NCBI GenBank assembly: GCA_004292955.1
Contig: RDXX01000054.1
Location: 1-64,000 of the forward strand
Source: Oscillatoriales cyanobacterium
GTDB taxonomy: Bacteria; Cyanobacteriota; Cyanobacteriia; Cyanobacteriales; Microcoleaceae
Reading direction: 5' to 3'
DNA: 64,000 nucleotides
The notes under the pieces were generated by a model, which ran no database searches, was not told where the DNA came from, and saw only the letters and a list, made by a program, of their open reading frames with translations. The position numbers were made by a program, and so were the translations under genes. Positions 41,525 to 58,470 of this stretch are shown here, one piece after another (position 1 is the first letter of the stretch; each line of letters opens with the position of its first letter).

Positions 41525-41644
41525 GGTGCATCTCACTTTTGTAAAAAGCATTTTTTTCTTATAGTGCGAGCACTTCAAGAGCTCGCGTATCGTATAATAC
41601 GCGAGCGGGGACAGCACTATTAAATGCAAAACTGAGATGCTCCC
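41524..41644. mobile_element. GGGAGCATCTCA palindromic element, partly degraded core
   Basis: The left end GGGTGCATCTCACTTTTG overlaps the stop codon of Uma2 copy 1 and the right end is CTGAGATGCTCCC. The core palindrome has one arm altered (ACTTCAAGAGCTCGCG against CGCGAGCGGGGAC). Confidence 0.8.
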
Positions 41645-41743
41645 TTGCCGTAGAATAAATAGTATAGGGGCGGGGCATCGCCCCTACAAAAATAGTTAGA
41701 GTCAACTAAAATTAAATATAATTAGAATAAAGGAGCAATCGAC

Positions 41744-42370
41744 ATGATTCAAGCCTTAACAAAATTAGTAACATTTGACGAATTCATTGCCTGGTATCCT
41801 GAAAATTCAGAACATCACTACGAACTGCACAATGGAGTAATTATTGAAATGCCCAAAGGAACTGGCCAACATTCAGAAATATCTGGCTTTCTCAATATAG
41901 AAGTTGGCGTTATATGTCGCAATACCCGATTGCCCTATTTCCTTCCCAAAGAATGTGTCCTTAAACCCGATCGCGACGAATCAGGATATGAGCCAGATGT
42001 CATAGTTCTCGATCGCCAGCAAGTGATAAATGAGCCACGTTGGGCAGCAGAATCGATTATCACAATGGGTTCATCAGTACGTTTGGCAGTAGAAGTAGTC
42101 AGCACCAACTGGCAGACTGATTATCTTACCAAACTGCGAGATTATGAAGAAATGGGCATTTTTGAATACTGGATTGTGGATTATTTGGGATTGGGTGGAA
42201 GACGCTACATAGGCAATCCCAAACAACCGACGCTTTCGGTATATCAATTAGTTGACGGGGAATACGAGTTGGCGCAATTCCGGGGAGACGATAGAATTGA
42301 ATCCGGTGCTTTCCCCGAGTTAAACTTGACTGCTCAACAGGTGTTTGAAGCAGGAATTGTGAATGAATAA
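41744..42370 (+). CDS. Uma2-family endonuclease (WYPEN subgroup)
   Basis: This 208-residue protein has VTFDEFIAWYPEN, YELHNGVIIEMPKGTGQHSE, PKECVLKPDRDESGYEPDVI and SSVRLAVEVVSTNWQTDYL. Asp in EPDVIVLD and Glu in VEVVS with Lys in TKLRDYEE form the PD-(D/E)XK site. The end LGLGGRRYIGNPKQPTLSVY is shared with the proteins at 57853 and 60038, so these three are close paralogues. AAAGGAG lies before the ATG. It is intact, and a probable terminator hairpin follows. Confidence 0.9.
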   Translation: MIQALTKLVTFDEFIAWYPENSEHHYELHNGVIIEMPKGTGQHSEISGFLNIEVGVICRNTRLPYFLPKECVLKPDRDESGYEPDVIVLDRQQVINEPRWAAESIITMGSSVRLAVEVVSTNWQTDYLTKLRDYEEMGIFEYWIVDYLGLGGRRYIGNPKQPTLSVYQLVDGEYELAQFRGDDRIESGAFPELNLTAQQVFEAGIVNE

Positions 42371-42429
42371 GGAGAATTGTCATAGGATAAGAGGTATTAA
42401 ATAGACCAAACTAAAAAACAGAACTCCCA

Positions 42430-42466
42430 GAACCCCGACTTCTTAAAGAAGTCAGGGTTCTTCTAA
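42430..42466 (+). terminator. Possible terminator of the Uma2 gene at 41744
   Basis: AGAACCCCGACTTCTT pairs with AAGAAGTCAGGGTTCT with one mismatch, followed by TCTT. Such hairpins are also a dispersed repeat in cyanobacteria. Confidence 0.45.
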
Positions 42467-42486
42467 GAAAGATCGCATTTTAGGTT

Positions 42487-42623
42487 ATATCAATTCCGGT
42501 TACACGACCTATGATATAGAGGAGACGGCAGTGCCGTGTCCCTACAATATTTTGGGTAGGGACACGGCACTGCCTTCTCCTAATTTCGGCTAATAATCAT
42601 TCCGATGCTACCGGATTTGATAT
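42487..42623. mobile_element. Inverted-repeat element with ATATCAATTCCGGT ends
   Basis: Ends ATATCAATTCCGGT (42487-42500) and ACCGGATTTGATAT (42610-42623) pair. Inside is a 25-bp stem (42521-42545 with 42556-42580, one mismatch). The right-hand end is also present at 30464-30495. Confidence 0.75.
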
Positions 42624-42694
42624 TAATTAAATTAACCTACTTAATTACAGCAAAAAAGTTTATAATATGTATACAACTCACAGGAAGCACGACC

Positions 42695-43430
42695 ATGACA
42701 GCAGTCGTTACCACCCTCAAAACTTCTGAAATCATATACCCTAGCGCTGATGGAGAACCAGTGGCAGAAAGCAAACCAATTTTTATACTACGCTCAAGGA
42801 TTCCCAAAACTGCGGGTAGCACCTGATGTGATGGTGATTTTTGATGTAGAACCAGGTGGCAGAGATAATTACAAAATCTGGGAAGAAGGACAAGTGCCGA
42901 AGGTAATTTTTGAAATGACATCACCGGGCACAAAGTCGGAAGATATAATCAATAAAAAAGACTTGTATGAGGGGATAGAAGTTGAGGAATATTGGTTGTT
43001 TGACCCTAGAGGTGAATGGATTCGGGAACAATTGCGCGGGTATCGATTGGGGGAAGATGGGTATGAATTAATCAGAGACAATCGCAGCGAGGTATTGCAA
43101 CTGCGGTTAGAAATAGAAGGAAAACTGATTGGGTTTTATCGCGAAGATAATGGGGAGAAATTATTGATTCCCGATGAATTGGCTTCAGCTTTAAAAGCAG
43201 AACGACAACGGGCTGAATCTGAACGACAACGGGCTGAATCTGAAAGTCAACGGGCTGAAGCTGAAAGTCAACGTGCTGAAGCCGAAAGTCAACGGGCTGA
43301 AGCTGAAAGTCAACGGGCTGAGGCCGAAAGTCAACGGGCTGAGGCTGAAAGTCAACGGGCGACTGAACTGGAATCTTTGCTAGCGAGTTATCGATCGCAG
43401 TTTGGAGAATTACCACAGGATAACAGCTAA
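42695..43430 (+). pseudogene. Uma2-family gene, N-terminal deletion and frameshift (copy 2)
   Basis: The same start as copy 1 (MTAVVTTLKTSEIIYPSADG) runs out of frame and stops at 42826. The body is in another frame and could be read from ATG 42750 as MENQWQKANQFLYYAQGF, giving a 226-residue product. Compared with copy 1 it lacks 25 more bases at the same left junction. The C-terminal 43203-43365 is a 21-bp tandem repeat coding QRAEAES heptads, a coiled coil. Whether the shortened product is made is open. Core residues (APDVMVIFD, KVIFEMTSPG) are retained. Confidence 0.8.
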
Positions 43431-43623: not shown

Positions 43624-44019
43624 ATGGAAAGTACGCAGAAAAAGTCTAGTGATAGTCAGGTTCGTAAGGGCGATCGAATTAAGCAGATTTTTGCGTTTGT
43701 ATCGATGGCTGGTTTTGCTGGTTCTACGATTTTTGGTATTGTGAGTCTGTTCAGCAGCGGTTTGAGCAGCCAGCACCAACAAAAACCTGTAGCTGTTGCT
43801 GTTTCTCAGGAGTCTCTACTGGCGGCCCAGGAACGGGGATATCTAACGGTTTTGCAGCGGGAACCTCAGAATCAGACGGCTCTTGAGGGGTTGGCAAATG
43901 TGCGGTTGGAGATGAATAATGGGAAAGGGGCGATCGAGCCTTTGGAGAAGTTGGTGAAGTTGAATGGCGATCGGGCTGATTATCAGGCACTGTTGCGGCA
44001 GGCGAAGGGGAAGAAGTAA
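43624..44019 (+). CDS. Small membrane-anchored TPR-like protein
   Basis: This 131-residue protein has one membrane segment at about 22-47 (IFAFVSMAGFAGSTIFGIVS). A TPR-like helical pair follows (LAAQERGYLTVLQREPQNQT, ALEGLANVRLEMNNGKGAIE), ending in a basic tail (QAKGKK). Such proteins usually serve as assembly or docking factors. No specific partner is apparent. The ATG at 43624 follows a weak AAAGG. It precedes the glycan cluster by 75 bases in the same direction, so co-transcription is possible. Confidence 0.78.
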   Translation: MESTQKKSSDSQVRKGDRIKQIFAFVSMAGFAGSTIFGIVSLFSSGLSSQHQQKPVAVAVSQESLLAAQERGYLTVLQREPQNQTALEGLANVRLEMNNGKGAIEPLEKLVKLNGDRADYQALLRQAKGKK

Positions 44020-44094: not shown

Positions 44095-46392
44095 ATGTTC
44101 TTTCTCCCAAGTTTAAAGAAAAGCGGTCATTTAGATCGAGTTCACATCACGATATGTATTGTTGGTTCTCGCAAAATTGAAAAGCAGGATGATTATGCCA
44201 GTCAAAACTGGGACATTTTCGCCCCTAACTTAACTATTTATGGATTTGATGCAGATCTAGAAGCTTGCGAGCAAGCTAATGCTGACCTAGCAGCTAGAAA
44301 AGTAAATTGGACTGAAAAACATATTCCCTTAGCTCTTAGCAATACAGAAGGAAAAGCCACACTTTATGTAACTAAATATCCTGGATGTAGTTCTTTATAT
44401 CCCCCCAGTGAAGAGTATATCAAGCGTTTTTCCGGCAATTCAGAACTAATCGAGCTAGAGTCTACATTAGATTTATCCACTACCACTTTAGAAAAATTTT
44501 GTAAAGCTGAAGGTATCAAAGAAATAGATTTTCTCCACCTAGACGTTCAGGGAGGAGAACTTAATGTTTTACAAGGAGCTGATGGGATATTAAATAATAG
44601 TGTATTGGGATTAATGACGGAAGTTGAGTTCACCGAGATATATGCAGGTCAACCTTTATTTAGCGATGTAGATGTTTATCTTAGAAAGCAAGGCTTGACA
44701 CTGTTTGACTTTGGAAGTATGTATCGCGATCGACGCCGCGACATCCCAGTTATATCACAAAGCCATCCTGGGGCTTTAATTTGGTCAGATGCTTTTTATT
44801 TTCGCGATTTGATGCGATCGGATTTGAACCCAAGCTTAAAAACACCTGAAAGACTGCTAAAGCTAGCTTGTCTGGCTGACGTAATGAAATTTCCAGATTA
44901 TGCCCTAGAAATTCTTGAGTATCTGACCTTGAATCACGGTCGCGATCCCAACTATAACTTTGCAAATAATATCATTGAGAGTCTGGGTGAAATTCCCGAA
45001 CTGGTAGAACAAGGGCTAGAATCGCTACCGATAGTTGCTAGACTTCGAGAATACATAAGTCTTGATGAAGGATACATTCCGAATACTGCCGAACCGATAA
45101 TCCCAGACTTAGAAACTACTCTGCTTAGAAACTGGAAACCTACTTTTATTTACAAAGGAAAACATCTCCCATACAACCGCATCGGGTACAATAATACTGG
45201 CGAGCGAGCCATTGAAATTCCAATTGCTTTGAATTTTCTAGCAACTTTAGAAAAGAAAGATAATATCCTGGAAGTTGGCAATACCCTCTCTCACTATGAA
45301 AACTCATTAAGCGAATATATTGGGATTAGACCAAGGCGCATAGTCGATAAATTTGAAGTTGCTCTAGGTGTAGACAATGTAGATTTTATGGACATTCCCT
45401 CTGAGGAAAAGTACGATGTTATAGTTTCAGTTTCTACTGTCGAACACATAGGACAAGGAATTGAGCCGTCTTCACAAGCCTATGGCGAGCAGATTCAAAT
45501 TCGCGACATGGAAGCGCCGCTGAAGGCGATCGCCAAAATTTATGACTTGTTAGCGGTAGGAGGTAAGGCTTTAATTACAGTACCATTTGGCAAGCTGATT
45601 GACGGCGGATGGTACATTCAGTTCGATCGACTATATTTAGAGACTTTAATAACTAAATATCAAATTCCGCGCGCAGCCATTTCTACAGTTTTTATGAGAA
45701 TTTTAGACATGGAAGTGCCAAGCAACAATCCCAGGGAAATCTGGATAGAGGAACAAAAAGAAAACCTTCAAAATGTCGAATATAACTACCCTTATCCTTG
45801 TGCAAATGCTATAGCCTTAATAGAGCTTAACAAACTTTCGGAAGCCTTTTATTTAAACCTAGATATTCCTTCCACAGCCCTAACTTATCATCAACCTGTT
45901 TGTGAAAGAGCGACATTTTTTCCCGACTTAATAAAAGATAGTTTCTTGCTGCTGTTATCAAAGCTAAGAGATATTAATTTAATCTGTTTTCCAGATTGGG
46001 AGCAACCCGAAGAATCTTTGTGTTCATATCTGGAAAAAGTCATTAGCTCAATTTTGGCTCACCCAGATCTAAGTCGCATAACTTTGCTGATATATCACAG
46101 CAATATTTCTGAGGAAGATGCAAACTTCGTGTTAGCTGGTGCAACAATGAACGTTTTGATGGAAGAGCAATTAGAGGTTGATCGTGAACCAGAATTTCAT
46201 TTAATGGAAAACATTAGTCAGGTTGAATGGGCCGCTTTGATACCTCGTATCTATTCGGAAATTGTCTGCGAAGACTCGAATAAGCAAGCAAGTGTAAACC
46301 TGCTATCAAAAAATATTCCTGTCTGTGACTTAGAAAACTTTAGCAAGCAGCGAATTGTTATGTTAGAAACAGAAGCTTGTGTTCTTAGATAA
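44095..46392 (+). CDS. FkbM methyltransferase / class I methyltransferase fusion with C-terminal FPDW module
   Basis: This is a 765-residue three-part protein. Residues about 40-235 are an FkbM-type methyltransferase (YGFDADLEACEQANADLAAR, IDFLHLDVQGGELNVLQGAD, GLMTEVEF). Residues about 375-560 are a second SAM-dependent methyltransferase-like domain (NILEVGNTLSHYE, YDVIVSVSTVEHIGQG, VGGKALITVPFG). Residues about 626-750 are the FPDW module (LICFPDWEQPEESL, SRITLLIYH, ATMNVLMEEQL, VEWAALIPRI), also found in the proteins at 46438 and 55476. FkbM enzymes O-methylate sugars or polyketides. In this setting, methylation of a surface glycan is likely. The first motif of the second methyltransferase (EVGNTLS) is atypical, so it may be weak or inactive. 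Confidence 0.85.
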   Translation: MFFLPSLKKSGHLDRVHITICIVGSRKIEKQDDYASQNWDIFAPNLTIYGFDADLEACEQANADLAARKVNWTEKHIPLALSNTEGKATLYVTKYPGCSSLYPPSEEYIKRFSGNSELIELESTLDLSTTTLEKFCKAEGIKEIDFLHLDVQGGELNVLQGADGILNNSVLGLMTEVEFTEIYAGQPLFSDVDVYLRKQGLTLFDFGSMYRDRRRDIPVISQSHPGALIWSDAFYFRDLMRSDLNPSLKTPERLLKLACLADVMKFPDYALEILEYLTLNHGRDPNYNFANNIIESLGEIPELVEQGLESLPIVARLREYISLDEGYIPNTAEPIIPDLETTLLRNWKPTFIYKGKHLPYNRIGYNNTGERAIEIPIALNFLATLEKKDNILEVGNTLSHYENSLSEYIGIRPRRIVDKFEVALGVDNVDFMDIPSEEKYDVIVSVSTVEHIGQGIEPSSQAYGEQIQIRDMEAPLKAIAKIYDLLAVGGKALITVPFGKLIDGGWYIQFDRLYLETLITKYQIPRAAISTVFMRILDMEVPSNNPREIWIEEQKENLQNVEYNYPYPCANAIALIELNKLSEAFYLNLDIPSTALTYHQPVCERATFFPDLIKDSFLLLLSKLRDINLICFPDWEQPEESLCSYLEKVISSILAHPDLSRITLLIYHSNISEEDANFVLAGATMNVLMEEQLEVDREPEFHLMENISQVEWAALIPRIYSEIVCEDSNKQASVNLLSKNIPVCDLENFSKQRIVMLETEACVLR

Positions 46393-46437
46393 TCACTTTT
46401 GTACTATTGCAACATTTCCAAACATCACACAGCAAAT

Positions 46438-47910
46438 ATGGTAATTGTCATTGATGGCGTATTTTTTCAGCTATACAGAACCGGAATAGCCCGTGTTTGG
46501 CGATCGTTATTAGAAGAATGGGCAGTCAGCAATTTCGCTGAATGTATTGTGGTTTTTGATCGTGCGGGTACGGCCCCAAAAATTCCTGGCATCAAATATC
46601 GTACCATCTCGCCTTATGACTACAACGCTACGGATGCTGATCGCGAAATGCTACAGCAAGTGTGCGATGAAGAAGGTGCAGATTTATTTATCTCTACTTA
46701 CTATACAACGCCACTATCAACTCCTTCTGTATTCATGGCCTATGATATGATTCCAGAAGTTTTGGGTGCCAACTTTGATGAACCCATGTGGAGGGAAAAA
46801 CATCGTGGAATTCGTCACGCATCTGCCTATATTTCAATTTCAGAAAATACAGCTTGTGATTTAGTCAAGTTTTTTCCTCAAATTCATTCTAATTTAGTAA
46901 CTGTCGCTCATTGCGGAGTTGCGAATAATTTCTCACCTGCTAATCTAGTGGAAGTTAATTGTTTTAAAAGCAAGTACGGGATTTCCAAGCCTTACTTTAT
47001 TTTAGTCGGTGCAGGAAGTGGCTATAAAAATGCAAATTTGTTCTTCCAAGCTTTTGCTAAACTTTATAGCAGACAAGGTTTTGAAATTGTCTGTACGGGT
47101 AGTGGCATATTATTAAGTCCAGAATTTAGAGATTGTACGTGGGGGAGTACAGTGCATATGCTGCAACTCAGCGATGAGGAGTTGACTCTAGCTTATTCTG
47201 GTGCGATCGCACTGGTTTATCCGTCGAAGTATGAAGGTTTTGGGATGCCGGTTTTAGAGGCGATTGCTAGTGCCTGCCCTGTGATTACTTGCCCTAATTC
47301 CTCTATTCCTGAAGTTGCAGGAGCCGCAGCTTTATATGTGAATGATGATGATATTGATGGGCTAGCAGATGCGCTTTGCGAGGTGCAGAAACCCAAAGTT
47401 CGCGACTCATTGATTCCTGCTGGGCTGGAACAAGCGAAAAATTTTTCGTGGTCAAAGATGGCCAAAATAGTTAGTTCAGCCTTGATTGAAGCTACTCTCT
47501 TCCGTTTGAATTTGAAAGAGATTAATTTAATTATTTTCCCAGATTGGTCGAAATTAGAAGAGTTTTTGGGTTTAGAGTTGCTAGAAGTGATTAGGGCGAT
47601 CGCAACTCACCCAGATAAAAGCAAGATGACTTTACTGGTAGACACCACCAACATTTCTGACGAAGATGCTGATTTAGCTTTATCTAGCGTTGCCATGAAT
47701 CTGCTGATGGAAAAAGATTTAGATGTTTCGGACGGACCTGAGATTGTAGCGATCGGACATTTGAACGAAATTCAGTGGCAAGCGCTCGTGCCTTACCTTC
47801 GTGCTAGAATTGTCTTGGAGAATGAGAATAAAGAAGCGATCGCGCAAATAGCCTCCCCAAAAATTCCCTTGGTTCAAATCGATAGTTTAAGTGAGTTCAC
47901 AAATTTATAA
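46438..47910 (+). CDS. Glycosyltransferase family 4 protein with C-terminal FPDW module
   Basis: This is a 490-residue GT-B-fold retaining glycosyltransferase. Its N-terminal part has VIDGVFFQLYRTGIARVW and DLFISTYYTTPL. The C-terminal catalytic part (about 180-345) has FILVGAGSGYKNANLFFQAF, then LSDEELTLAYSGAIALVYPS, KYEGFGMPVLEAIASACPVI and SSIPEVAGAAALYV. Residues about 362-490 are the FPDW module (INLIIFPDWSKLEEFL, KMTLLVDTTNISDEDADL, MNLLMEKDLDV, IQWQALVPYL). The ATG at 46438 is preferred over a TTG at 46399 because it begins the first beta strand. It lies 46 bases after the FkbM fusion gene, same strand, probably the same operon. Confidence 0.88.
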   Translation: MVIVIDGVFFQLYRTGIARVWRSLLEEWAVSNFAECIVVFDRAGTAPKIPGIKYRTISPYDYNATDADREMLQQVCDEEGADLFISTYYTTPLSTPSVFMAYDMIPEVLGANFDEPMWREKHRGIRHASAYISISENTACDLVKFFPQIHSNLVTVAHCGVANNFSPANLVEVNCFKSKYGISKPYFILVGAGSGYKNANLFFQAFAKLYSRQGFEIVCTGSGILLSPEFRDCTWGSTVHMLQLSDEELTLAYSGAIALVYPSKYEGFGMPVLEAIASACPVITCPNSSIPEVAGAAALYVNDDDIDGLADALCEVQKPKVRDSLIPAGLEQAKNFSWSKMAKIVSSALIEATLFRLNLKEINLIIFPDWSKLEEFLGLELLEVIRAIATHPDKSKMTLLVDTTNISDEDADLALSSVAMNLLMEKDLDVSDGPEIVAIGHLNEIQWQALVPYLRARIVLENENKEAIAQIASPKIPLVQIDSLSEFTNL

Positions 47911-47920
47911 GTTTGTTCGT

Positions 47921-49501
47921 CTAGTTTTTACAGTAAAGGTGAATTTTCGTATTTTTATTTAAGTTTCGATTAAAATTACCAAATTCATACTGCTTAAATT
48001 TATCCTTCAAAAACCAAGATGAATTTCTCAAAAATATTTCCTTCTGGTATGGCAAAAGCACAACGCATGGCAAATATTTTTTGTTTTTAAGTTTATCCAA
48101 AGTTTGATAATTATAAAATTTTTCTATCTTTTGATAAAAAGAATTTTTAGGACTAACATAGCTATCAAAATACAAATTATTTCTACTTGATACATAATTA
48201 AGATATTTTTTTATTGAAAAACTCCATTCATAGGAAAGATGAGGGTTTGAAACAATTAAGATTGGATCGTTTACTTGAGTTTTTGCTTCTATTGTTCGCA
48301 GTAAAGCAGCGGTAGATTTCCCTTCAAGTGCAAAAGTATGTGCTGCATCCCAAGCTAAACTCAAGTTAAAGCTCAACGTAATCATAATTAATAATAAAAT
48401 CAACTTAGCTGCAAATTTATAATTTTTATTGAGATAATTGTAGATAGTTATTATTAAAAAAGCATAACCTAAAATTCCGGGTAATATGTATCGTTGAACA
48501 ATTCCAGACTTGGCGTAAAGCAATATTTGAGGTATTGCAACTAAGAAAAGTAAAATAACCGAAAAATACAAAGCATTTAAAATCGGGGGTAGAGATTGAG
48601 AATAAGGGGGCTTAATAGTTAATCTAATTGATATCAAACTTATTAATATGATCCACCAATAACCAGCCTGACTTAAACTTTGAGTAGCGTTGATGATACT
48701 GGAAATATTAAATCCATCAACTCCAGCGTATCCAATCTCAGGATTTAGCCCAATATAAAATTTGATAAACACAAATTCTGTACAAAAAATTATACCCAAA
48801 ATTGATAGCGATAAACTATTCTTCTTCAGAGATTCAAGCCATGACAAAGTTTTTATATGACGAGACATCCAAACTTTGAGCGCCGCTATAGCTGGAATCA
48901 CAAGAATAAAACTTTCTTTAGACAAAGACATTATTAAAACTAAAACAACAAATAAACTTTCATATAAACTTTTATATTTATTAACTTTCTCACTCAGTGC
49001 TGCAAATACTAAAGCACCCGCTAGTAAAAATGTACCTATTGTTTCAGCAGGCCCAAGTTGCCACCAGACTGCTGATTGCGGCCCCAAAGTTATTAAAAAG
49101 GAAAATAGTAGAGCTTCTCTTATTGAAAAATTGATCAACCTTCCAAACATGAATAGGAAGAATGTAGTGAAAACTCCTAACATTCCCGTATAAAGTGACC
49201 ACCAAGCGAAATTAATTCCTAGTAATCTTGTTTGAAGAATTCTATGAAAATAATAAAAGGGTCGAAACCTTCCAGTTAATAAATCATTGTGAATCCATTG
49301 ACTACTTACTTCAAAAATACCGAGTTTTTCAACTGTAAGATTATAGTTAATATGAGCTATTTCATGGTCATCAGTAAAGTGATATCCAGAAAACAGTGAA
49401 CCACTTGTGATAAATAGGAGAAACCAAAATATTAAGATGAACAGGAAAACAGTTAGATAATCATATTTTTTGAAAAAGCTAACATAGTTAGATATTTTCA
49501 C
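47921..49501 (-). CDS. Polytopic membrane protein, GT-C-like
   Basis: This 526-residue protein has about ten to twelve hydrophobic segments. After the first (VFLFILIFWFLLFITSG), the first outer loop has SGYHFTDDHEIAH, an acidic pair placed as in GT-C transferases that use polyprenyl-phosphate sugars. A C-terminal soluble part begins about residue 420. Family assignment is uncertain. GTG at 49501 is chosen because an ATG at 49594 would overlap the upstream gene by 74 bases. The gene is clearly richer in A and T than its neighbours, a possible sign of separate origin. It follows the GT41 gene by 19 bases. Confidence 0.7.
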   Translation of the reverse strand: MKISNYVSFFKKYDYLTVFLFILIFWFLLFITSGSLFSGYHFTDDHEIAHINYNLTVEKLGIFEVSSQWIHNDLLTGRFRPFYYFHRILQTRLLGINFAWWSLYTGMLGVFTTFFLFMFGRLINFSIREALLFSFLITLGPQSAVWWQLGPAETIGTFLLAGALVFAALSEKVNKYKSLYESLFVVLVLIMSLSKESFILVIPAIAALKVWMSRHIKTLSWLESLKKNSLSLSILGIIFCTEFVFIKFYIGLNPEIGYAGVDGFNISSIINATQSLSQAGYWWIILISLISIRLTIKPPYSQSLPPILNALYFSVILLFLVAIPQILLYAKSGIVQRYILPGILGYAFLIITIYNYLNKNYKFAAKLILLLIMITLSFNLSLAWDAAHTFALEGKSTAALLRTIEAKTQVNDPILIVSNPHLSYEWSFSIKKYLNYVSSRNNLYFDSYVSPKNSFYQKIEKFYNYQTLDKLKNKKYLPCVVLLPYQKEIFLRNSSWFLKDKFKQYEFGNFNRNLNKNTKIHLYCKN

Positions 49502-49520
49502 GCTAAACCATCTCGATAGA

Positions 49521-51770
49521 CTAAGTGTTATCACAATATTTCTGCCACATCTGCTCGTAAGCATTTTCCATTTCACGAGTAAACTGTTTGGCATTCCAGA
49601 GGGGAGATGTTTGCCTTGATTGCCGCAGTCGCCACGCTATCTGTTGTCGCAAAGCCGAATCTTTACCCAAGCGAACTCCCCACTCCACATACTCTTCATC
49701 AGTCCAAGCAATTCCTTCAGTTACACCCACATTCATCATCATCGTATAGCTGTTACGAGCAGCAAACTGCTCGCCAACTCGCGTTACCAGAGGAATACCC
49801 ATCCACAGAGTTTCTAGGGTGGTTGTAGCTCCGTTATACGGGTAGGTATCAAGAACTACGTCAGCGATGCCTAAGTTAGCTCGGTGAAAGGCTTCTGAGG
49901 GGTCTTGCGACAAAAATCGCAGGCGATCGCCCTCCACACCCTCTTCTTCCGCTAGCTGAGTAAAAAAGCGTTCAATCGCTTTTCTATCAGCCCCACCCTT
50001 GATTAAAAAGTAACTGTTCGGTACTTCTGCCAGAATCTTAATTTGTAATCGCGCTGTGTCAGGATGCCGCTTGTAGCCAACCTGAGAACTAAGATATATA
50101 ACGGCGTCGCTAGAAATATTCAAATGCTCGCGGCGCAGAGTCGGTACCTCCACCTCAAAACCATCCACAGCTATATAGGTTTGAGGCAAGCGCCAAATTT
50201 TTTCGCTGTAATAATCCTCGGCTGACTCCGGCAGAACATAGGGATCTGCAATAAAATAATCAATAGCGGGCAGTCCAGAAGCATCCCAACCCAACCAAGT
50301 AACTTGAATAGGTGCCGGTTTGAGCGCCATCACTTCACCAGTCAAATCCAGAGTGATGCTGTCTAAATCTATCAGAATATCAATCTCATCCTGATAAATT
50401 TGCTCAGCCATTTCTCCCGGAAAAAAACTACCTTGATGAGCTTTATGGGCCTGCTCAACATAGAATTCTTCTAACCAATCGTAGAGCGGCTTTTTTCTAT
50501 AAGCCATGAAATAAGTATAAAGTTGAAAGCGATCGCGGTCGTGATACTGAAACAGCCATCTCACCAGCCAGCCCACAGAATGTCTTCCCAGGCAATGGGA
50601 TAGGTAGCCAATCTTCAAAGGCTTGACAGTAGCACCAAGATTGCGACGAGCTAAGTTCCCCTGCCGAAATCGCTCTACCTCCTCCCTGGCATAGATTTCA
50701 ATGTTGGTTTGGCACAGTTTAGCCACTTGGTTTTGAAGTTGTCTGTTATTTTTTGCCCGATCCTGAAAGTAGGGGAAAAAGAAAGTTGTAGTCAACAAAC
50801 TTTGAACTCTGGTTTGAATCAGCGAGGTCGCCTGTCGATCGATCAGAGACTGCAATTGTGATTGGTGACGTTTCATGACAGAACAGACTTCTTCCCAATA
50901 TCCAACTGCACCCATCAACCCTCGAAGAATCTTGTAATTCGCATAAACTTTCTCGGGTAATTCCTCTGATAAGGAATAGCACAATTTAGCCAGTTCTATA
51001 CCTTTTTCGTACTGCCTAGCATTTTGGTAACAAGCCGCCAAATGATGTAAAAGAGTCAACCTTTGCAAAATGTCTAAATTTTCAAAATCTAAACGGCGAC
51101 CTATCTCAGCAAAACTAGCAGCTAGTGTCGCCGACGACGAAGAAATTTTTATACAGGCTACGATCATAAGTTGGACAAAATCTTGAGGCTCGCGGACATG
51201 GGGAAGACAGGCTTCCGCTAATTCCAGAGCGGACGGGTGAAAAGGATCGCAATCTAAAACACTTTTCAAGACTTGCATTAATAGCTCAAACTCTACTTCT
51301 ATCGGTGGTTCCGACTGGAGGAGTTCTATTACACCAAAAGAATATAGTTCATCTCCTGTGTAGATATCAAGGAGGATGGACAGCCCTATCAAATGGAACA
51401 GATTGTTAATATCGGTGGGATTAATCTCTCTTATGTGCTGGCGGATTGTCCAAGCTAGCGAATAGTCTGCCAAATTTCCCCTGCGAACAGCTTCAGCTTG
51501 CAGCACCTCAATCAGTTCCGCTGTCCACTGCTCAACTTGTTCCGGCTCTCCTTCTGCCATGCCAAGCAGCCAAGTTGTCTGAGCTTCTGCCTCTTGCCCT
51601 TGCAACAGCAACATCAACCCTAAATACCAGTAACAAGACTTAGTATCAGCTTCGTCTTCAATCGCCTGCTCGTATAAGTTTGCAGCTTGACTATAATCGC
51701 CTCTGAGCAGGCATTGATGGGCTTGTTGCTGCCAAAGGGCAGGCTCAGGAGATAGCGAACTAGCAATCAT
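49521..51770 (-). CDS. TPR / O-GlcNAc-transferase-like (GT41, SPINDLY) protein
   Basis: In this 749-residue protein the N-terminal ~350 residues are helical repeats of TPR type (LWQQQAHQCLLRGDYSQAAN, CYWYLGLMLLLQGQEAEAQT, HLAACYQNARQYEKGIELAK). The GT41 catalytic half starts near residue 364: KIGYLSHCLGRHSVGWLVRW, IDILIDLDSITLDLTGEVMA, APIQVTWLGWDASGLP, IADVVLDTYPYNGATTTLET and GIPLVTRVGEQFAARNSYTM. Such enzymes add a sugar to Ser/Thr of proteins. It lies downstream of the pilin gene on the same strand. The frame is open to 51863, but ATG 51770 gives the natural N-terminus. Pilin glycosylation is an inference from position. Confidence 0.88.
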   Translation of the reverse strand: MIASSLSPEPALWQQQAHQCLLRGDYSQAANLYEQAIEDEADTKSCYWYLGLMLLLQGQEAEAQTTWLLGMAEGEPEQVEQWTAELIEVLQAEAVRRGNLADYSLAWTIRQHIREINPTDINNLFHLIGLSILLDIYTGDELYSFGVIELLQSEPPIEVEFELLMQVLKSVLDCDPFHPSALELAEACLPHVREPQDFVQLMIVACIKISSSSATLAASFAEIGRRLDFENLDILQRLTLLHHLAACYQNARQYEKGIELAKLCYSLSEELPEKVYANYKILRGLMGAVGYWEEVCSVMKRHQSQLQSLIDRQATSLIQTRVQSLLTTTFFFPYFQDRAKNNRQLQNQVAKLCQTNIEIYAREEVERFRQGNLARRNLGATVKPLKIGYLSHCLGRHSVGWLVRWLFQYHDRDRFQLYTYFMAYRKKPLYDWLEEFYVEQAHKAHQGSFFPGEMAEQIYQDEIDILIDLDSITLDLTGEVMALKPAPIQVTWLGWDASGLPAIDYFIADPYVLPESAEDYYSEKIWRLPQTYIAVDGFEVEVPTLRREHLNISSDAVIYLSSQVGYKRHPDTARLQIKILAEVPNSYFLIKGGADRKAIERFFTQLAEEEGVEGDRLRFLSQDPSEAFHRANLGIADVVLDTYPYNGATTTLETLWMGIPLVTRVGEQFAARNSYTMMMNVGVTEGIAWTDEEYVEWGVRLGKDSALRQQIAWRLRQSRQTSPLWNAKQFTREMENAYEQMWQKYCDNT

Positions 51771-51944
51771 AAAGGCAAGATTCTCAAAAATTACTGGTTG
51801 AAAACTTATGCAACCCCGAATGTTATTGCGAGGGGTAGGTAGCTCAAGAAGAGATCTCGCCAAACAAAGCTTAAGATTACTGTGTTACAGCTATCGCTTC
51901 GCTGGCAATAACAAACTACGCAAGTCATACGATCCTCTAAGAAG

Positions 51945-51974
51945 AGTGGGTAGCGTACACATACACTACCCACT
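51945..51974 (-). terminator. Hairpin downstream of the pilin gene
   Basis: AGTGGGTAGCGTA and TACACTACCCACT form a 13-bp stem with one G-T pair, 56 bases after the pilin stop. There is no long T run on the minus strand, so it may stabilise the pilin mRNA end or attenuate read-through into the GT41 gene. Confidence 0.5.
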
Positions 51975-52029
51975 TTCCTAAAAATTTTAGGCTATGCCAG
52001 AAAAAAACATTCTCAAGCTAATGCCTTTC

Positions 52030-52557
52030 CTACTTCGAGACTTCTTGGCTGTCAGCCTTAGCGCAGACTGGAGGATTGGTAGCAACTCCAGCGAGTGCAG
52101 TTTGTTGGGTTGCTAGACTCTCGCACAATACTGCTAACGTAGTTGCTTCACTTGTAGCAAGAACCGTACCCAGAACCACCGATCCTGTATACGCTTTAAG
52201 TGCACCAACCCTGGCTATTCCCTGATTGGCAACTGCACTTTGACTAGAGCCTGAGACTGCGTAGTCGTAGTTAGTAGTTTGAGTTTTGATACCAATTCCT
52301 AGTTTATCAATGGTGTCTGTTACGAAGCCACCAGCTTCCGCATATTTTGCTTGCTGAGCTCGGTTCATTGAACCAGTGTACTGCTTGGCTTCAGACTGCT
52401 TAGCTTTGTTGGCTTGGTTGAGGAAGGAAGGCAAAGCAATAGCAGATAGAATACCGATGATGATGATCACGACCAGCAGTTCAATTAACGTGAAACCCTT
52501 ATCCAGTTTTTTATGATTGAGGTGTTGCAGGAATCTGGCTTTAAATTCAGTCTTCAT
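52030..52557 (-). CDS. pilA: Type IV pilin-like protein (PilA family)
   Basis: This is a 175-residue pre-pilin with a long leader (21 residues) ending in the cleavage site KGFTLIELLVVIIIIGILSA. Glu5 of the mature protein is present and the first helix is the conserved hydrophobic one. SFLNQANKAKQSEAKQYTGS and NRAQQAKYAEAGGFV follow, as in cyanobacterial major and minor pilins. The C-terminal part is Ser/Thr/Ala-rich with two cysteines (CESL, PVCAKA) that could form the D-loop. The Ser/Thr content and neighbours (GT41, methyltransferases) suggest it is glycosylated. Which pilin class it belongs to cannot be settled here. Confidence 0.88.
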   Translation of the reverse strand: MKTEFKARFLQHLNHKKLDKGFTLIELLVVIIIIGILSAIALPSFLNQANKAKQSEAKQYTGSMNRAQQAKYAEAGGFVTDTIDKLGIGIKTQTTNYDYAVSGSSQSAVANQGIARVGALKAYTGSVVLGTVLATSEATTLAVLCESLATQQTALAGVATNPPVCAKADSQEVSK

Positions 52558-52664
52558 GATTAGTTTCTCCTAGAGGTGTGGATGCTTGACTTCTAACTCG
52601 TAAACTTAACTTACCCACTTTTGCCAACGTTCATATCACCCGCCGCCCATTTTTTTTCCTCTCC

Positions 52665-54902
52665 TCAAGCCGATCGCTCCAAAAGCACGTACAGAAAAGC
52701 TTCTAGCATACTTAAGAGTTCTTTCACTTCCTCAAAAGCCGTCTCTGGGCTCACCAGCTCCAGGGTGGCTGGGTGCAGCGGCCTGAGTTTGAGCCAGAGT
52801 TCTACTAAAGAGTTGACAGGCTGCGCTCCCTCCCACAGAGGTAGCAGGCAAGCCGCTAGCATACTCTCGATCGCGATCGGAACTTGAGTAGGCAAAGGAA
52901 TGTAACTGCTAATGATAAAAGGTTTCTGGCTGGCGATGCACTTGAGCAAATCTTCCCTCACCTGAGGAGTTTTCAATTGAGGATGCAAGTGAACCCGTGC
53001 TTGCTGCCAGTCCCACTCACTCCATTCGGCAACTGGCACAAAGAACTCAGGTTTCTGGCTGGGATGACCGCACCAAAAGTCAATGAGACGATGGACGGGA
53101 TGTAACAGTTCAAACATATGCAGCCGATCTTCTACAGAAATTTCTGGCAAGCTCATTTCTAAAAAGGCAGGCAAATTTTCTGAATCTTGGAACAGATCCG
53201 TCACATCCCAGTGCCGCCAGCCCACCATGCTGACAAACTCTAAATCAGCCGCTCTCAAGGCGGCAAACACTTCTGGGATAGTATACCCTTTGTCCCCCTG
53301 GAGTAAATAGTTCATGAAAATCCATTCATCAGTATTATTAGAATTCCAGTTTCTTGCTTTTAGAAGAACTTCATTCTTCAAAGCATTCATGGTTTCTCGA
53401 ACTATTTCAAGCTCTAAATCCTGCGGGTTTTCATCCATCAAACCCATCATGTTACAAATTTTTTGAGCCCTAAAAAAGCTAGCTCGCTGCAAGGCGCTAT
53501 GTAAATTTGTCCGAATAATTCCGTCTGGCTTTAAAACAGACTTCATTGCTTGCAACCCTACAACAATATCTGGCAAAAGGTAAAGAACTTCATCGTTATT
53601 AATCAAATCAAATTGCAAACCTAAACTAGGTAATTTTTCGATTGAGATTGCATGAAATTCTACATTTTCAAAACCGTGATATTCCAAGCGCTGACGAGCT
53701 AGTTTTACAGACTCTTCTGACAAATCAATGCCGACAATTTTAGCTCCTGGATTTGCTTCTGCCAAAATCAAGGCTTTGTATCCACTGCCACATCCAGCAT
53801 CCAAAATTATTTTACCTTCAGTTTCTATTACTATTTGATTTTTTAAGTAATAAGGCGTCACCAAATTATGAATATAAAGCTGTACATAGTTATTTTTGGG
53901 TGATTCCTCTAGCGGAGTTCTGGGGTAACAAACGGTATCGAATTGCTGGCGCACTTTGTCTGATACATCTAATTTTTCATTATTAACTGGCAAATTATTT
54001 TGAACCTTAATTGAAGTGGTCATCAGATTATTTTCTAGTTCTGTGGCGAGTTCGGCAAGCTCCTCTGACAGAGGATACATATGCTGGTACTGAAGGATTT
54101 GTTTGCCTATCAATGCCAAACGCCGCTCGAAATTTGGAGTAACAGACGGGTCAAGTAGAGGAGTTTTGTAAGGCTCAACATCACACCTTTGAAATTCAAA
54201 AGCTAAGCTAATGCGCGGATGAGGTGCTCTTTCGCTGCTGCGGCCTCCCCAGTGCAATACTGCGTGATTCCAACACAAGACAGAACCCGCATTTGCGGGT
54301 AATGCACGAATGTCTTGAAAGTTGATATTTTCCTTTTTTTCACCTTTTTTGATGTTACCATAATTGGCATCAAAAGGAGCTGGCAGGATGTACATACATC
54401 CATTGAGTGGGATGGCATCGCTAAGGGGAATCCAGATGGTTACACACTTGGGCATCCCGTCTGCTAAAAGAGTGTCATTCAAGTTGTCGCGATGTGGCTG
54501 CCATCCTTTTTCACTATTGGTTGTGTTGATATACCAAGCCCAAAAAGCGGGCAACTGTTGGTACTCCTCACCGAGGATAGCTGATAATATTTGCGACAAC
54601 CGAGAAAAAGTATGCCAAAACTCATCGTAAATGAAGGCGAATGGCACAGGCCAGCCGGACTCTCGCAGTTTTTCTATGCCATCTGCCATCCGCAAAATCT
54701 CTGCTTCAGACAAAAATGAATCGAGTTGAAAGTAGCCTTCTTTCTTGAGATTGAACAACAGTTTGTCCATGTGTTCTTGCTCAACTGCAAGAGCACTTCT
54801 AGATAGTGAAGTAACATCTTCACTTACCGTTAACTGGGGATTCAGGCTTTTCCAATAGTCGGGATTTTGAGCTTGCTCTAAAATAGTTTTGAGGCTAATC
54901 AT
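52665..54902 (-). CDS. Phytanoyl-CoA dioxygenase-like / SAM methyltransferase fusion
   Basis: In this 745-residue fusion, residues about 45-240 are a PhyH-type Fe(II)/2-oxoglutarate oxygenase. WQPHRDN supplies His137 and Asp139, VLHWGGRSS the distal His217, and HPRISLAFEF the likely 2-oxoglutarate-binding Arg230, so the iron site is complete. Residues about 340-480 are a class I methyltransferase (IILDAGCGSGYKALILAEAN, IVGIDLSEES, VEFHAISIEKLPSL). The C-terminal ~260 residues are helical, Trp-rich and unassigned. It would hydroxylate and methylate one substrate, perhaps a sugar or lipid of the surface glycan. It reads toward the pilin gene, 107 bases upstream of it. Confidence 0.85.
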   Translation of the reverse strand: MISLKTILEQAQNPDYWKSLNPQLTVSEDVTSLSRSALAVEQEHMDKLLFNLKKEGYFQLDSFLSEAEILRMADGIEKLRESGWPVPFAFIYDEFWHTFSRLSQILSAILGEEYQQLPAFWAWYINTTNSEKGWQPHRDNLNDTLLADGMPKCVTIWIPLSDAIPLNGCMYILPAPFDANYGNIKKGEKKENINFQDIRALPANAGSVLCWNHAVLHWGGRSSERAPHPRISLAFEFQRCDVEPYKTPLLDPSVTPNFERRLALIGKQILQYQHMYPLSEELAELATELENNLMTTSIKVQNNLPVNNEKLDVSDKVRQQFDTVCYPRTPLEESPKNNYVQLYIHNLVTPYYLKNQIVIETEGKIILDAGCGSGYKALILAEANPGAKIVGIDLSEESVKLARQRLEYHGFENVEFHAISIEKLPSLGLQFDLINNDEVLYLLPDIVVGLQAMKSVLKPDGIIRTNLHSALQRASFFRAQKICNMMGLMDENPQDLELEIVRETMNALKNEVLLKARNWNSNNTDEWIFMNYLLQGDKGYTIPEVFAALRAADLEFVSMVGWRHWDVTDLFQDSENLPAFLEMSLPEISVEDRLHMFELLHPVHRLIDFWCGHPSQKPEFFVPVAEWSEWDWQQARVHLHPQLKTPQVREDLLKCIASQKPFIISSYIPLPTQVPIAIESMLAACLLPLWEGAQPVNSLVELWLKLRPLHPATLELVSPETAFEEVKELLSMLEAFLYVLLERSA

Positions 54903-55217
54903 CGGTTTTGGCTGTGTCTCCCCTGAGTTGACGACTTATAATTTATCAATTTTTGCGGCAATATCCTTGGCTAGCTTAAAGGCCAGCAACAAGTTCAGCT
55001 CTTGCGGACTTAGCTTAACGTAGGAAATGTCAATGATGCGAATCTACCTTTAAACTGAAGCTTACCCAAAATTATCATAAATATTATCAGCACTCCCGGC
55101 ACGATCGATCGCACTTTTCCCCAAACCCCACACAAAACAAGACCACAGCCTTGCCATAATAGTTAAGGTCAAAGTTTCCCTCCCCCTCGCCAGATCGTAC
55201 AACCAACCAGCACATCC

Positions 55218-55409
55218 ATGAACACCAACATCAGCCCCATCCTCAAAGTATTCTGCTTCTCCGCCGCGTTTTCCCTGGCCATCAAGTACGCAGGGCCCAG
55301 CCTATCCATAGCCTCAACCGACTTCAACGCCCTGATCGCCGTGTTTACCCCCAGTATCATCCTAGCTGCGATTCTGGGCTGGCGGGCATGGCAACAGCAG
55401 CCGAGGTAG
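55218..55409 (+). CDS. Small hypothetical membrane protein (63 aa)
   Basis: Two predicted membrane segments are seen (about 8-25, ILKVFCFSAAFSLAIKYA, and 37-54, ALIAVFTPSIILAAILGW), ending in RAWQQQPR. No known motif is present. The pattern of charge at the ends and the codon use look like a real gene, and it lies 66 bases upstream of the SPINDLY-like gene. The 54903-55217 gap contains no other frame I can support. Confidence 0.55.
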   Translation: MNTNISPILKVFCFSAAFSLAIKYAGPSLSIASTDFNALIAVFTPSIILAAILGWRAWQQQPR

Positions 55410-55475
55410 GAGTTGAGCAGCCGCACACAACACCAAAAGCCCCACAATACCCAAGAATACAGGACAGACGATCGC

Positions 55476-57614
55476 ATGGATCTAACCACCTTGAATCTCA
55501 AACCCTTAAATTTGCTCATTTTCCCCGATTGGAGCCAACCAGAAGAATTGCTATATTTAGAGTTGGCCGCAATTATTAAAAGTATTGTCACTCATCGCGA
55601 TCGCCACAATCTAGCTCTTTTAATAGATAGCACCGAAATTTCAGAAGACTCTGAGTTAGACGCTGATTTAATTTTGTCCGGGATTCTCATGAATCTCTGC
55701 ATGGAAGAAGATTTAGAGTCAAGCGTCGAACCGGAAATTATTTTATTAGAAAACCTCAGTCAAAGCCAGTGGCAAACTCTTCTGCCACAAATTCAATATA
55801 GAATTAAGTTGGCTGCGGAAAATCAAATAGCACTAGCCTTGTCCGGCGCAGAAATTATCCCACTATTGGAACAGGATCGACTTGGCGATATAACGCTGGA
55901 ATCACCAGCATCAATGGCCCTGAGTTTGGCTAACACACTCTACTCTCAAGGAAGATATGAAGAAGCTATTAAGCAGTATCAAAGATTTTCGCAATTCCAG
56001 GTAGGAGATATAGCACTATTTTTGAACTTCAGCGATTGCTGGCGAAGAATTAATCAAATCTCAGCAGCTATCGCAATTCTTGAACACGGGCTTCGCTATT
56101 ACCGGACAGCCGGACAACTGCACTTTGAACTCATCAAAATTTGTCAGCAGAGCGGACAAACAAAAAAAGCTATTTCAAATGCAGAAATAGCCGCAGAGAT
56201 TCTCCCTAATGAATACGTTTTCAAACTTTTTAGCCACTTAACATTACCAATTATTTACAATAGCTTACTTGAAATTCAAACTTACCGTAAGAGATTTGTC
56301 AGAGAATTAGAAAGCTTGATTCAGCAAACATCTTTGAAAACTCCACAAGAAAAAATCAATGCTTTTTTCGGCTTGCAGAGTTTCACTAATTTTTACCTAG
56401 CCTATCAAGCCCACAATGTTGTGGAATCCCAATCAAAATATGCCAATTTAGTGCATCAAATTATGGCGGCGAACTATCCCCAGTGGGTGGAACCGCGACA
56501 GATGCCTCCGCTGCCGGAAAATGGTAAAATTAGAGTCGGTTATGTTTCTAGTTACTTGCATTCTTACAGCGGCACTTTATGGTTGACCGGCTGGTTGCGC
56601 TATGCCGATACGAAAAAAATAGAAATTTACTGTTACTACACGGGTAACGAACCCGATCTAATTACAGAACAATTTCGCGAATACAGCCATGTATTCCGCC
56701 ACATTCCTCACAACTTAGAAGCTGTATGCCAACAAATTATTGATGACAAATTGCACATTCTTGTCTTCCCGGAAATTGGGATGGATGCACCAACTGTCCA
56801 AATAGCAGCTTTGCGCCTCGCACCCGTGCAATGTTCGGCGTGGGGACATCCTGTAACCTCTGGTTTACCCACAGTTGACTATTTTATTTCCAGCCAATTG
56901 ATGGAACCGGAAAATGCACAATTGCATTACTCAGAAACCTTAGTTAAGTTGCCTAATATTGGGGTTTCCTACCCAAAACCACTCGTGGGAGAATTAAACA
57001 ACAGTCGCTTAGATTTTGACCTGCGAGAAGATGCAATAATTTACTTTTGCTGCCAAGCTCCTTTCAAATACTTACCGCAATATGATTTTATTTTAGCAGA
57101 AATTGCCCGCCACGTTCCGCAAGCTCAGTTTATTTTTCCGCGCGGTGAACTTTTGCGAAAACGGCTCAAGCGGGCTTTTGCTGCTGTTAACCTCGATAGC
57201 GAAGATTACTGTGTATTTCGAGCGATTGCAACTCGACAAGAGTATATAGCCATGAACTTTCTTGCCGATGTTTTCTTGGATACTTTCACTTGGTCGGGGG
57301 GAAATACGTCTTTGGAGGCGATCGCCTGCAATTTACCTATAGTAACTTGTCCGGGAGAATTTATGCGGGGACTGCACGCTTATAGCTTTCTCAAGATGCT
57401 GGGAGTAACAGAGACAATTGCCCAAAACGAAGAGGAATACATTGAAATTGCTGTCAAGTTGGGTCTAGATTCAGAGTGGCGGCGAGATATTTCACAACGC
57501 ATGAGTGAGCGACACGCTCTTCTGTTTGATGATAAAGTTTGCGTGACAGCTTTAGAGAGTTTTTATCAAGGAGTTGTTCGAGAAAGACTTAAACAGTTGA
57601 CAGTTGACAGTTGA
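55476..57614 (+). CDS. SPINDLY-like glycosyltransferase with N-terminal FPDW module and TPRs
   Basis: This is a 712-residue protein. Residues about 8-125 are the FPDW module (LNLLIFPDWSQPEELLYLEL, LALLIDSTEIS, MNLCMEEDLESS, SQWQTLLPQIQYRI), here at the N-terminus instead of the C-terminus. Residues 140-260 are TPRs (ANTLYSQGRYEEAIKQYQRF). The GT41-like half starts near 350: KIRVGYVSSYLHSYSGTLWL, LHILVFPEIGMDAPTVQIAA, APVQCSAWGHPVTSGLP, DVFLDTFTWSGGNTSLEAIA and LPIVTCPGEFMRGLHAYSFL. ATG 55476 with AGGACAG upstream is preferred to the earlier frame opening at 55413. It probably transfers a sugar to a protein. Its run into CAGTTGA heptamers at the 3' end is notable. Confidence 0.88.
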   Translation: MDLTTLNLKPLNLLIFPDWSQPEELLYLELAAIIKSIVTHRDRHNLALLIDSTEISEDSELDADLILSGILMNLCMEEDLESSVEPEIILLENLSQSQWQTLLPQIQYRIKLAAENQIALALSGAEIIPLLEQDRLGDITLESPASMALSLANTLYSQGRYEEAIKQYQRFSQFQVGDIALFLNFSDCWRRINQISAAIAILEHGLRYYRTAGQLHFELIKICQQSGQTKKAISNAEIAAEILPNEYVFKLFSHLTLPIIYNSLLEIQTYRKRFVRELESLIQQTSLKTPQEKINAFFGLQSFTNFYLAYQAHNVVESQSKYANLVHQIMAANYPQWVEPRQMPPLPENGKIRVGYVSSYLHSYSGTLWLTGWLRYADTKKIEIYCYYTGNEPDLITEQFREYSHVFRHIPHNLEAVCQQIIDDKLHILVFPEIGMDAPTVQIAALRLAPVQCSAWGHPVTSGLPTVDYFISSQLMEPENAQLHYSETLVKLPNIGVSYPKPLVGELNNSRLDFDLREDAIIYFCCQAPFKYLPQYDFILAEIARHVPQAQFIFPRGELLRKRLKRAFAAVNLDSEDYCVFRAIATRQEYIAMNFLADVFLDTFTWSGGNTSLEAIACNLPIVTCPGEFMRGLHAYSFLKMLGVTETIAQNEEEYIEIAVKLGLDSEWRRDISQRMSERHALLFDDKVCVTALESFYQGVVRERLKQLTVDS

Positions 57615-57746
57615 TAGTTGACAGTTGACAGCGAGGTTTTTTGGATGGGATTTATATCAAGTCCGATCGAATGATGACAATAAAATTAGTTTGTAGTGAG
57701 GACTTTAGTCCTTGACAGAATCAGGACTAAAGTCCTCACTACGAAC
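57594..57746. repeat. CAGTTGA heptamers overlapping the gene end, then an inverted GTAGTGAGGACT pair
   Basis: The array begins inside the last codons of the SPINDLY-like gene (coding QLTVDS) and runs to about 57630. TTGTAGTGAGGACTTTAGTC at 57692 and its inverse at 57723-57742 belong to the family at 988-1073. Confidence 0.85.
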
Positions 57747-57852
57747 CTTAGAGCCGAAACCCTCGAAAATCGCCCTACAAGTTCGTCTGACGCACCCTAC
57801 AAGTCATATAATATACGTTAGGACGATCGCAACCAAACTCAAGGCACTCACC

Positions 57853-58470
57853 ATGATTCAAACCATAACTGAATTAGTAACATTCGATGAATTCATTGAC
57901 TGGTATCCTGAGAATTCAGGATGTCACTATGAACTACACAACGGAGAAATTGTTGAAATGCCAAAAGCAACAGGCAAGCATTCTAAAGTAGCAGGTTTTA
58001 CCTCGCTGAAGGTAGGAATTGAGATTGAGCGTCTTAATTTACCCTACTTCATCCCGAAAGAAGCCGTCATCAAACCCATGCGCGAGGAATCTGGTTATGA
58101 ACCAGATATTATTGTACTCAACGAACAAACCATTGGAAACGAGCCGCGATGGGAGAAATCATCAATTATTACAATGGGTTCATCAGTTCCCCTAATCGTA
58201 GAAGTAACTAGCACTAACTGGGAGGATGATTATGCCCGCAAACTAGAGGCTTACGAGTCAATGGGCATCCAAGAATATTGGATTATAGACTATCTAGGAT
58301 TGGGCGGGAGACGGTTTATCGGCAATCCTAAGCAACCAACTTTTTCGGTTTACCAACTAATTGATGGGGAATACCAAGTTAAACTGTTCCGAGGGGCTGA
58401 GGTGATTGAGTCGCCAACTTTCCCAAAATTGAATCTGACAGCGCAGCAGGTGTTCGCGAAAGGGAATTGA
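57853..58470 (+). CDS. Uma2-family endonuclease (WYPEN subgroup)
   Basis: This is a 205-residue paralogue of the genes at 41744 and 60038: VTFDEFIDWYPENSGCHYEL, EIVEMPKATGKHSKVAGF, EESGYEPDIIVL, VPLIVEVTSTNWEDDYARKL and LGLGGRRFIGNPKQPTFSVY. Active-site Asp (EPDII), Glu (VEVTS) and Lys (ARKLEAYE) are present. ATG 57853 is chosen over the upstream frame opening because it matches the paralogues' start. The upstream part runs through repeats. It appears intact. Confidence 0.9.
   Translation: MIQTITELVTFDEFIDWYPENSGCHYELHNGEIVEMPKATGKHSKVAGFTSLKVGIEIERLNLPYFIPKEAVIKPMREESGYEPDIIVLNEQTIGNEPRWEKSSIITMGSSVPLIVEVTSTNWEDDYARKLEAYESMGIQEYWIIDYLGLGGRRFIGNPKQPTFSVYQLIDGEYQVKLFRGAEVIESPTFPKLNLTAQQVFAKGN

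Follow-up and report, generated by a model that had tools for sequence, protein, structure and literature searches.

A putative adaptor domain of cyanobacterial glycosyltransferases and methyltransferases encoded near pilin genes

Here we report a protein module, marked by the motif FPDW, that is common to three glycan-related enzymes of one cyanobacterial locus and represents a new adaptor-like domain family within a known kind of glycosylation locus. The locus lies in a stretch of 64,000 nt from an Oscillatoriales cyanobacterium (contig RDXX01000054.1), which was analysed as a whole and is called the window below. The module is a putative docking or address tag that would gather the enzymes of a pilin glycan on one substrate, a function to which we give an even chance. 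The features of the locus, in window positions, are as follows.

43624–44019, + strand: small TPR protein with a single hydrophobic (TM-like) segment, directly 5′ of the module genes
44095–46392, + strand: FkbM methyltransferase, weak Methyltransf_23 region and module, 765 aa
45940–46347, + strand: module copy 1, C-terminal part of the FkbM/methyltransferase fusion; FPDW at 45988
46399–47910, + strand: GT4 glycosyltransferase and module, 503 aa (Pfam, full-length model)
47488–47904, + strand: module copy 2, C-terminal part of the GT4 enzyme, after the complete GT-B catalytic unit; FPDW at 47536
47921–49594, − strand: hydrophobic membrane protein, 557 residues, between the GT4 and OgtA-like genes
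49521–51863, − strand: module-free TPR-GT41 (OgtA-like) enzyme adjoining the pilin gene
52030–52557, − strand: type IV pilin (Pilin_GH PF16734, N_methyl; Pfam)
52665–54902, − strand: PhyH region and SAM methyltransferase (Pfam); relatives adjoin the pilin gene in other loci
55413–57614, + strand: module, TPR and GT41 glycosyltransferase, 733 aa (Pfam)
55473–55892, + strand: module copy 3, N-terminal part of the TPR-GT41 (SPINDLY-like) enzyme; FPDW at 55521

The second methyltransferase region of the FkbM fusion is weak (Methyltransf_23, E 0.021, below the family cut-off in Pfam). The membrane protein at 47921–49594 had no Pfam or NCBIfam match at E ≤ 0.1; by likeness, it is a possible membrane glycosyltransferase. 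In many loci, a shorter relative of the PhyH–SAM methyltransferase, usually about 450 aa long, is encoded no more than 600 bp from the pilin gene. Two TPR-GT41 enzymes are encoded in the locus (49521–51863 and 55413–57614), and only the one away from the pilin gene carries the module. Genes of the Uma2 family are present on both flanks (40077–43430 and 57712–58470). Pfam matches to Uma2 were obtained at 40077–40661 and 42750–43427, while the ORF at 57712–58470, presumably Uma2, groups by sequence with the ORF at 41726. Rfam and tRNA scans of the window gave no match.

An earlier note on this DNA had proposed a module of about 115 residues at the C terminus of the FkbM fusion and the GT4 enzyme and at the N terminus of the SPINDLY/GT41 enzyme. 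All three copies were found in these places, with a common FPDW core that stands in frame in each ORF; the module is slightly longer than proposed, at about 125–140 residues. The three-way alignment has 38 invariant columns, and the other two copies are 40% and 47% identical to the GT4 copy. When the GT4 copy was searched against its own genome (7.29 Mb, 163 contigs), it retrieved itself and the two others (E 6.2e-30, 49%; E 4.5e-28, 43%) but nothing further at E ≤ 0.01. A profile of the three rows again found three copies. Judged from sequence, the similarity of the copies is far above chance.

Relatives were collected by a search of genome contigs, in which the best 80 of 180 stretches encoding module relatives were taken and yielded 78 loci; judged by genus names, the titles of these are all cyanobacterial. 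In an even draw of genomes within the cyanobacterial phylum, the module was detected at E ≤ 1e-3 in 62 of 386 genomes and 38 of 142 genera. Plasmid records contained no module match at the same threshold. A total of 119 near-complete modules was reduced to 93 modules aligned at ≤80% identity. No Pfam family exceeded its gathering cut-off for any of these 93 modules (best E 0.0043), and no PDB sequence matched their profile at E ≤ 10, in agreement with the claim of the earlier note that the module belongs to no named family; a match to a Pfam domain of known function, which would have spoken against it, was likewise not among the results for the 93 modules. The 25 Pfam families that were listed are unrelated to each other and were matched at chance level, each by one or two of the 93 modules, and do not include the Asp1 family. 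When the window proteins were searched with Pfam and NCBIfam, their catalytic parts were annotated and the modules left blank, save for one match of 16 residues at chance level (E 0.082) in the GT41 copy. The module is therefore unnamed in Pfam and, for the three window proteins, in NCBIfam; its fold class and the type of locus are already known. No published description of the module was found in the literature listings searched, which lay outside the primary Ogt papers.

An AlphaFold model built from the 93-row alignment is a compact five-stranded alpha/beta module (pLDDT 86.6, pTM 0.83) with the element order helix-E-H-E-H-E-H-E-H-E-H. In the model of the full GT4 enzyme (pLDDT 87.2, pTM 0.86), a complete two-halved GT-B unit (residues 16–346, the halves being read from the list of secondary-structure elements) is followed by a helix (351–370) and by the module (375–492) as a third alpha/beta unit. 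According to these predictions, the module folds as a separate domain outside the complete GT-B unit.

The solved structures that come nearest to the model are Asp1 and GT-B enzymes. A Foldseek search of the PDB gave two matches at E ≤ 1e-3, both to Asp1 (5vaf), a GT-B-like protein not known to be an enzyme. Four chains of 5vaf led the list (E 3.4e-4 to 2.1e-3), and a chain of the Gap123 complex (6oyc) was 11th. Among the 50 matches listed of 1484 were trehalose-6-phosphate synthases, the C domain of glycogen synthase (2bfw) and an entry for O-GlcNAc transferase (2xgm); receptor entries and other clear noise were interspersed. The streptococcal Asp1/Gap1 proteins are chains of about 500 residues from another phylum, whereas the module comprises one alpha/beta unit, is fused to enzymes and has no sequence match to Asp1/Gap1; the accessory Sec systems of these proteins serve glycoprotein export (PMC5578698).

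With the C-terminal half of GT-B enzymes (GT4, GT41, OtsA, glycogen synthase) the module shares Foldseek matches and, in one model, an alternating alpha/beta Rossmann-like arrangement with the element order of the GT4 C half, but no profile similarity. Alignment with hhalign to GT4 and GT41 halves gave probabilities of 0.1–6.5% (93 rows, with secondary structure added, or 180 rows; all alignments shallow). Decoys behaved alike (2–3% with FkbM, up to 4.2% for decoy pairs), and the positive control, GT4C versus GT41C, a true pair by fold, reached only 60–63%, so that the power of the test is limited. Homology of the module to these halves was thus undetected at decoy level in a weak test. The GT-B donor site is marked by a conserved E and basic residues; no EGFG-like stretch occurs in the module consensus, although the GT4 half of the same protein has the motif. 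At the 40 module positions of highest conservation, the most frequent residue is never K or R. Because the order of elements is similar but profile homology was not detected, we call the module Rossmann-like and GT-B-half-like rather than a member of the GT-B fold.

Conservation was calculated from weighted frequencies over 180 distinct modules, after matches of 100 residues or less had been dropped. N15, W22, P20, D21 and F19 are conserved at 91–99%, and E26, E27, D54, E61 and N116 at 68–85%. In the module model, FPDW is located just after strand 1 and D54 at the end of strand 2; strand ends are the usual ligand edge of Rossmann-like folds. In five pairs, dN/dS was 0.19–0.42 for the modules versus 0.12–0.19 for the catalytic parts, with the highest module value coming from a pair with few changes. 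The module is under purifying selection, which is looser than that on the catalytic domains.

The module is attached to a variety of enzymes. Pfam identified GT4, GT2, GT41, GT61 with TPR, FkbM and Methyltransf_24 in eight selected module chains, several SAM methyltransferase families in eight further chains (Methyltransf_11, 23 and 24 are among the partners overall), and Glyco_trans_1_2, DUF5672, Methyltransf_11 and TylF in another nine, which provides the list of domain partners that the earlier note had called for. Four of the eight proteins in the SAM methyltransferase set had no Pfam match at E ≤ 0.5 (L004:7610, L010:6299, L022:3843 and L013:4160); by eye, the first two resemble exostosins and the third resembles GT9. 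The partner without Pfam match in L004:7610–9211 and L010:6299–8011 is about 400 aa long and is found on the 5′ side of nine distinct modules. Of the 180 distinct modules, a GT4 C half precedes 80, GT41 precedes 20 and follows 16, the exostosin-like domain precedes 9 and another module precedes 10; for 27, our own set of models recognises no neighbour. The catalytic domains, described as unrelated in the earlier note, do comprise many different glycan enzymes with the module at either end; GT4 and GT41, however, are both GT-B enzymes, so that not all partners are unrelated. Giant polyproteins of 2138–2341 aa (L128:8452–15474, L023:1078–7983 and L040:1–6414, the last cut at the locus edge) fuse methyltransferases, GT4, GT2 and GT41 in varied mixes with modules.

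On a tree of the modules, 37 changes of partner label were counted, versus a mean of 94 after shuffling, and the strongly supported branches alone force at least five changes for the GT4 label (resolution is lacking at 67 of 177 inner branches, and the joins of several long ones are doubtful). These changes suggest that the module moved between enzymes repeatedly and yet stayed with one enzyme type in many lineages. Repeated transfer between enzymes has therefore probably occurred, as far as the tree of sequences can tell.

Copy numbers were determined for 162 of 173 module polypeptides, namely those uncut by a locus edge (module fragments were merged and stop-to-stop ORFs were used; chains were collapsed only if they had the same module core, which leaves related species as separate counts). 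One module is present in 150 chains, two in 11 and three in one. A module is located no more than 30 aa from the C terminus in 129 chains and no more than 60 aa from the ORF start in 23, and 14 chains show neither placement (the counts overlap). The mean number of modules is 1.0–1.06 for chains of up to 1600 aa, 1.25 at 1600–2000 aa (four chains) and 2.0 at 2000 aa and above (seven chains); for 0, 1, 2, 3 and 4 or more catalytic domains it is 1.11, 1.0, 1.09, 1.4 and 1.33, respectively. Module number rises weakly with the number of catalytic domains (rho 0.16, p 0.046) and correlates with length at rho 0.32. With the exception of the giant chains, these counts fit one tag per polypeptide better than one accessory per active site.

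The earlier note had not linked the locus to pilin glycosylation; this link is added here. In the window, the pilin gene adjoins a TPR-GT41 gene (49521–52557; Pfam). Before pilin positions were known, 40 regions were chosen by hand for spread; each is at most 20 kb long, and 39 of the 62 module-positive genomes are represented. Together with the window, these make 41 regions. A pilin of the window's family is encoded in 24 of these, and in all 24 the nearest GT41 gene is 4–417 bp away and lacks the module. The nearest distance between a module and Pilin_GH is ≤10 kb in 25 of 40 genomes (0.46 expected) and ≤25 kb in 28 (1.16 expected), the expectations being simple density estimates. In the other 12 genomes the distance is larger (four), Pilin_GH is on another contig (six), or there is no Pilin_GH (two; G177 and G332).

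An Ogt encoded beside pilA is involved in PilA glycosylation in other strains and affects pilus assembly, as stated in a review (PMC12288463) that cites Khayatan 2017 and Suban 2022 for Ogt. In Nostoc punctiforme, expression of ogtA depends on sigJ, as does that of pilus genes (PMC6495340). The window likewise pairs a pilin with a TPR-GT41 enzyme, and in many related genomes such pairs have module genes nearby, whereas the accessible text on the pilA–ogt (OgtA) locus (PMC12288463) mentions neither the module nor the module enzymes nor the small TM-TPR companion. Most simply, the module enzymes are further enzymes of the pilin glycosylation pathway, a view suggested by their position.

The TM-TPR companion is encoded at 43624–44019 in the window (131 residues; TPR_19, E 5.3e-6; one hydrophobic segment) and was found in 22 of the 41 regions, in 12 of which its ORF immediately precedes a module ORF on the same strand, at a distance of 0–116 bp (stop-to-stop ORFs). 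A profile of 19 of the 22 proteins, all from module loci, detected relatives in 129 of the 386 genomes of the phylum draw at E ≤ 1e-15. Close matches at E ≤ 6e-40, a limit set post hoc at a gap in the list that drops some true neighbours, such as that of G008, occur in 49 genomes. Of these, 47 are module-positive, and the distance to the module is ≤16 kb in 44 of the 47; when the 19 source genomes of the profile are left aside, 28 of 30 genomes with a close match are module-positive. Fifteen module-positive genomes have no close TM-TPR match. Basic residues are more frequent before than after the hydrophobic segment in 18 of 19 members, some of which have an only moderately hydrophobic segment. 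From this bias, the TPR part is predicted to lie outside the cytosol, which argues against direct contact with cytosolic enzymes. The idea of the TM-TPR protein as a cytosolic docking receptor is weakened to that extent.

Several other explanations of the module were weighed against docking. That the segments extend the adjoining catalytic folds at their C-terminal side and form no separate domain, an objection foreseen in kind by the earlier note, is hardly credible. The last GT-B helix does run into the first helix of the module (351–370) in the full GT4 model, but the GT-B unit is complete without the module, so the module is not part of the neighbouring catalytic fold; both AlphaFold models contradict that placement, the module being well modelled on its own (pLDDT 86.6), and it is also found at the N-terminal side of GT41 and in chains that contain GT61 or methyltransferases. 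It is very unlikely, too, that the module lacks a selected function and is spread by recombination among adjacent genes. Many partner changes, tandem copies and a constraint looser than that of the catalytic domains would suit such an element, but dN/dS is <0.45 in all five module comparisons and the five leading residues are 91–99% conserved over 180 modules. A regulatory sensor of a nucleotide or nucleotide sugar is improbable, although the Rossmann-like topology, the conserved residues at the canonical ligand edge and the universal stress protein folds among the Foldseek matches (3idf, 7ji4) would be consistent with one: the 40 most conserved positions contain no conserved basic residue and no glycine-rich phosphate loop, and the module is found on sugar transferases and methyltransferases, which use different cofactors.

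A greater, if still limited, probability belongs to an eroded GT-B half that binds sugar, that is, a lectin-like domain or reader of the acceptor glycan that would hold the growing pilin glycan, by analogy to the GT-B-like Asp1/Gap1 proteins of accessory Sec glycoprotein systems. Asp1/Gap1 proteins are not known to be catalytic. Such a reader agrees with the best Foldseek matches (Asp1, the Gap123 chain and GT-B enzymes) and with the conservation of F19, P20, D21, W22, E26, E27, D54 and N116 at or near strand ends, since aromatic and acidic residues are frequent in sugar sites. The Foldseek matches at E ≤ 1e-3 number only two, though, with clear noise among the 50 listed; the hhalign values against GT4 and GT41 halves (6.5% or less) are no better than those of decoys; and most chains that fuse two catalytic domains carry one module. 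Docking is preferred to glycan reading because there is one copy per chain and its placement is terminal, while the matches of the predicted fold pull toward glycan reading. The two could be one, since a tag that binds glycosylated pilin would be both.

Docking was already the idea of the earlier note, which had proposed a docking or scaffold module. One copy per polypeptide, terminal placement and linkage to pilin genes speak for it; the binding itself is what we infer, and folds like those of Asp1 and GT-B enzymes would equally allow binding of a glycan or acceptor. According to the docking reading, the module would be an independently folding, probably non-catalytic alpha/beta adaptor domain (Rossmann-like and GT-B-half-like) that in cyanobacteria is fused to glycosyltransferases and methyltransferases, as a rule terminally and in a single copy per polypeptide. 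The enzymes so tagged, which lie near pilA and the module-free OgtA-like enzyme in most genomes examined, would probably build or cap the pilin glycan. The module would bind a shared partner and thereby gather enzymes of different kinds on one substrate; candidates for the partner are the pilin or the glycan growing on it, the OgtA-like hub and other modules. Several observations count against such a tag. No Pilin_GH gene lies within 10 kb in 15 of 40 genomes, two of which have none at all; some enzymes in the same loci lack the module; the conserved polar residues at strand ends resemble a ligand site and would suit sugar binding equally well; and the module evolves faster than the catalytic domains. 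A strict rule of one tag per chain is also at odds with the 2.0 modules in the seven chains of 2000 aa or more and the 1.3–1.4 modules in chains with three or more catalytic domains.

The docking domains of modular polyketide synthases and the dockerins of cellulosomes differ from the module in fold. Like it, they are small terminal tags on diverse enzymes, which the module could similarly bring together; no cognate receptor was identified for the module in this analysis. As a more speculative proposal, the module may be part of an undescribed docking code for a pilin-glycan assembly line, in which tagged enzymes would join a complex of the OgtA-like enzyme and pilin, strains would swap tagged enzymes, and the TM-TPR protein would be the membrane partner.

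The module is a practical marker with which to seek the remaining enzymes of the pilin-glycan pathway in cyanobacterial genomes. Ogt affects pilus assembly, and no specific module enzyme is named in the accessible part of the review (PMC12288463). One tag for one complex is a simple hypothesis that is testable by removal of about 130 residues. If the module is indeed a docking tag, it would offer a plug-in means of addressing glycosyltransferases to a chosen protein.
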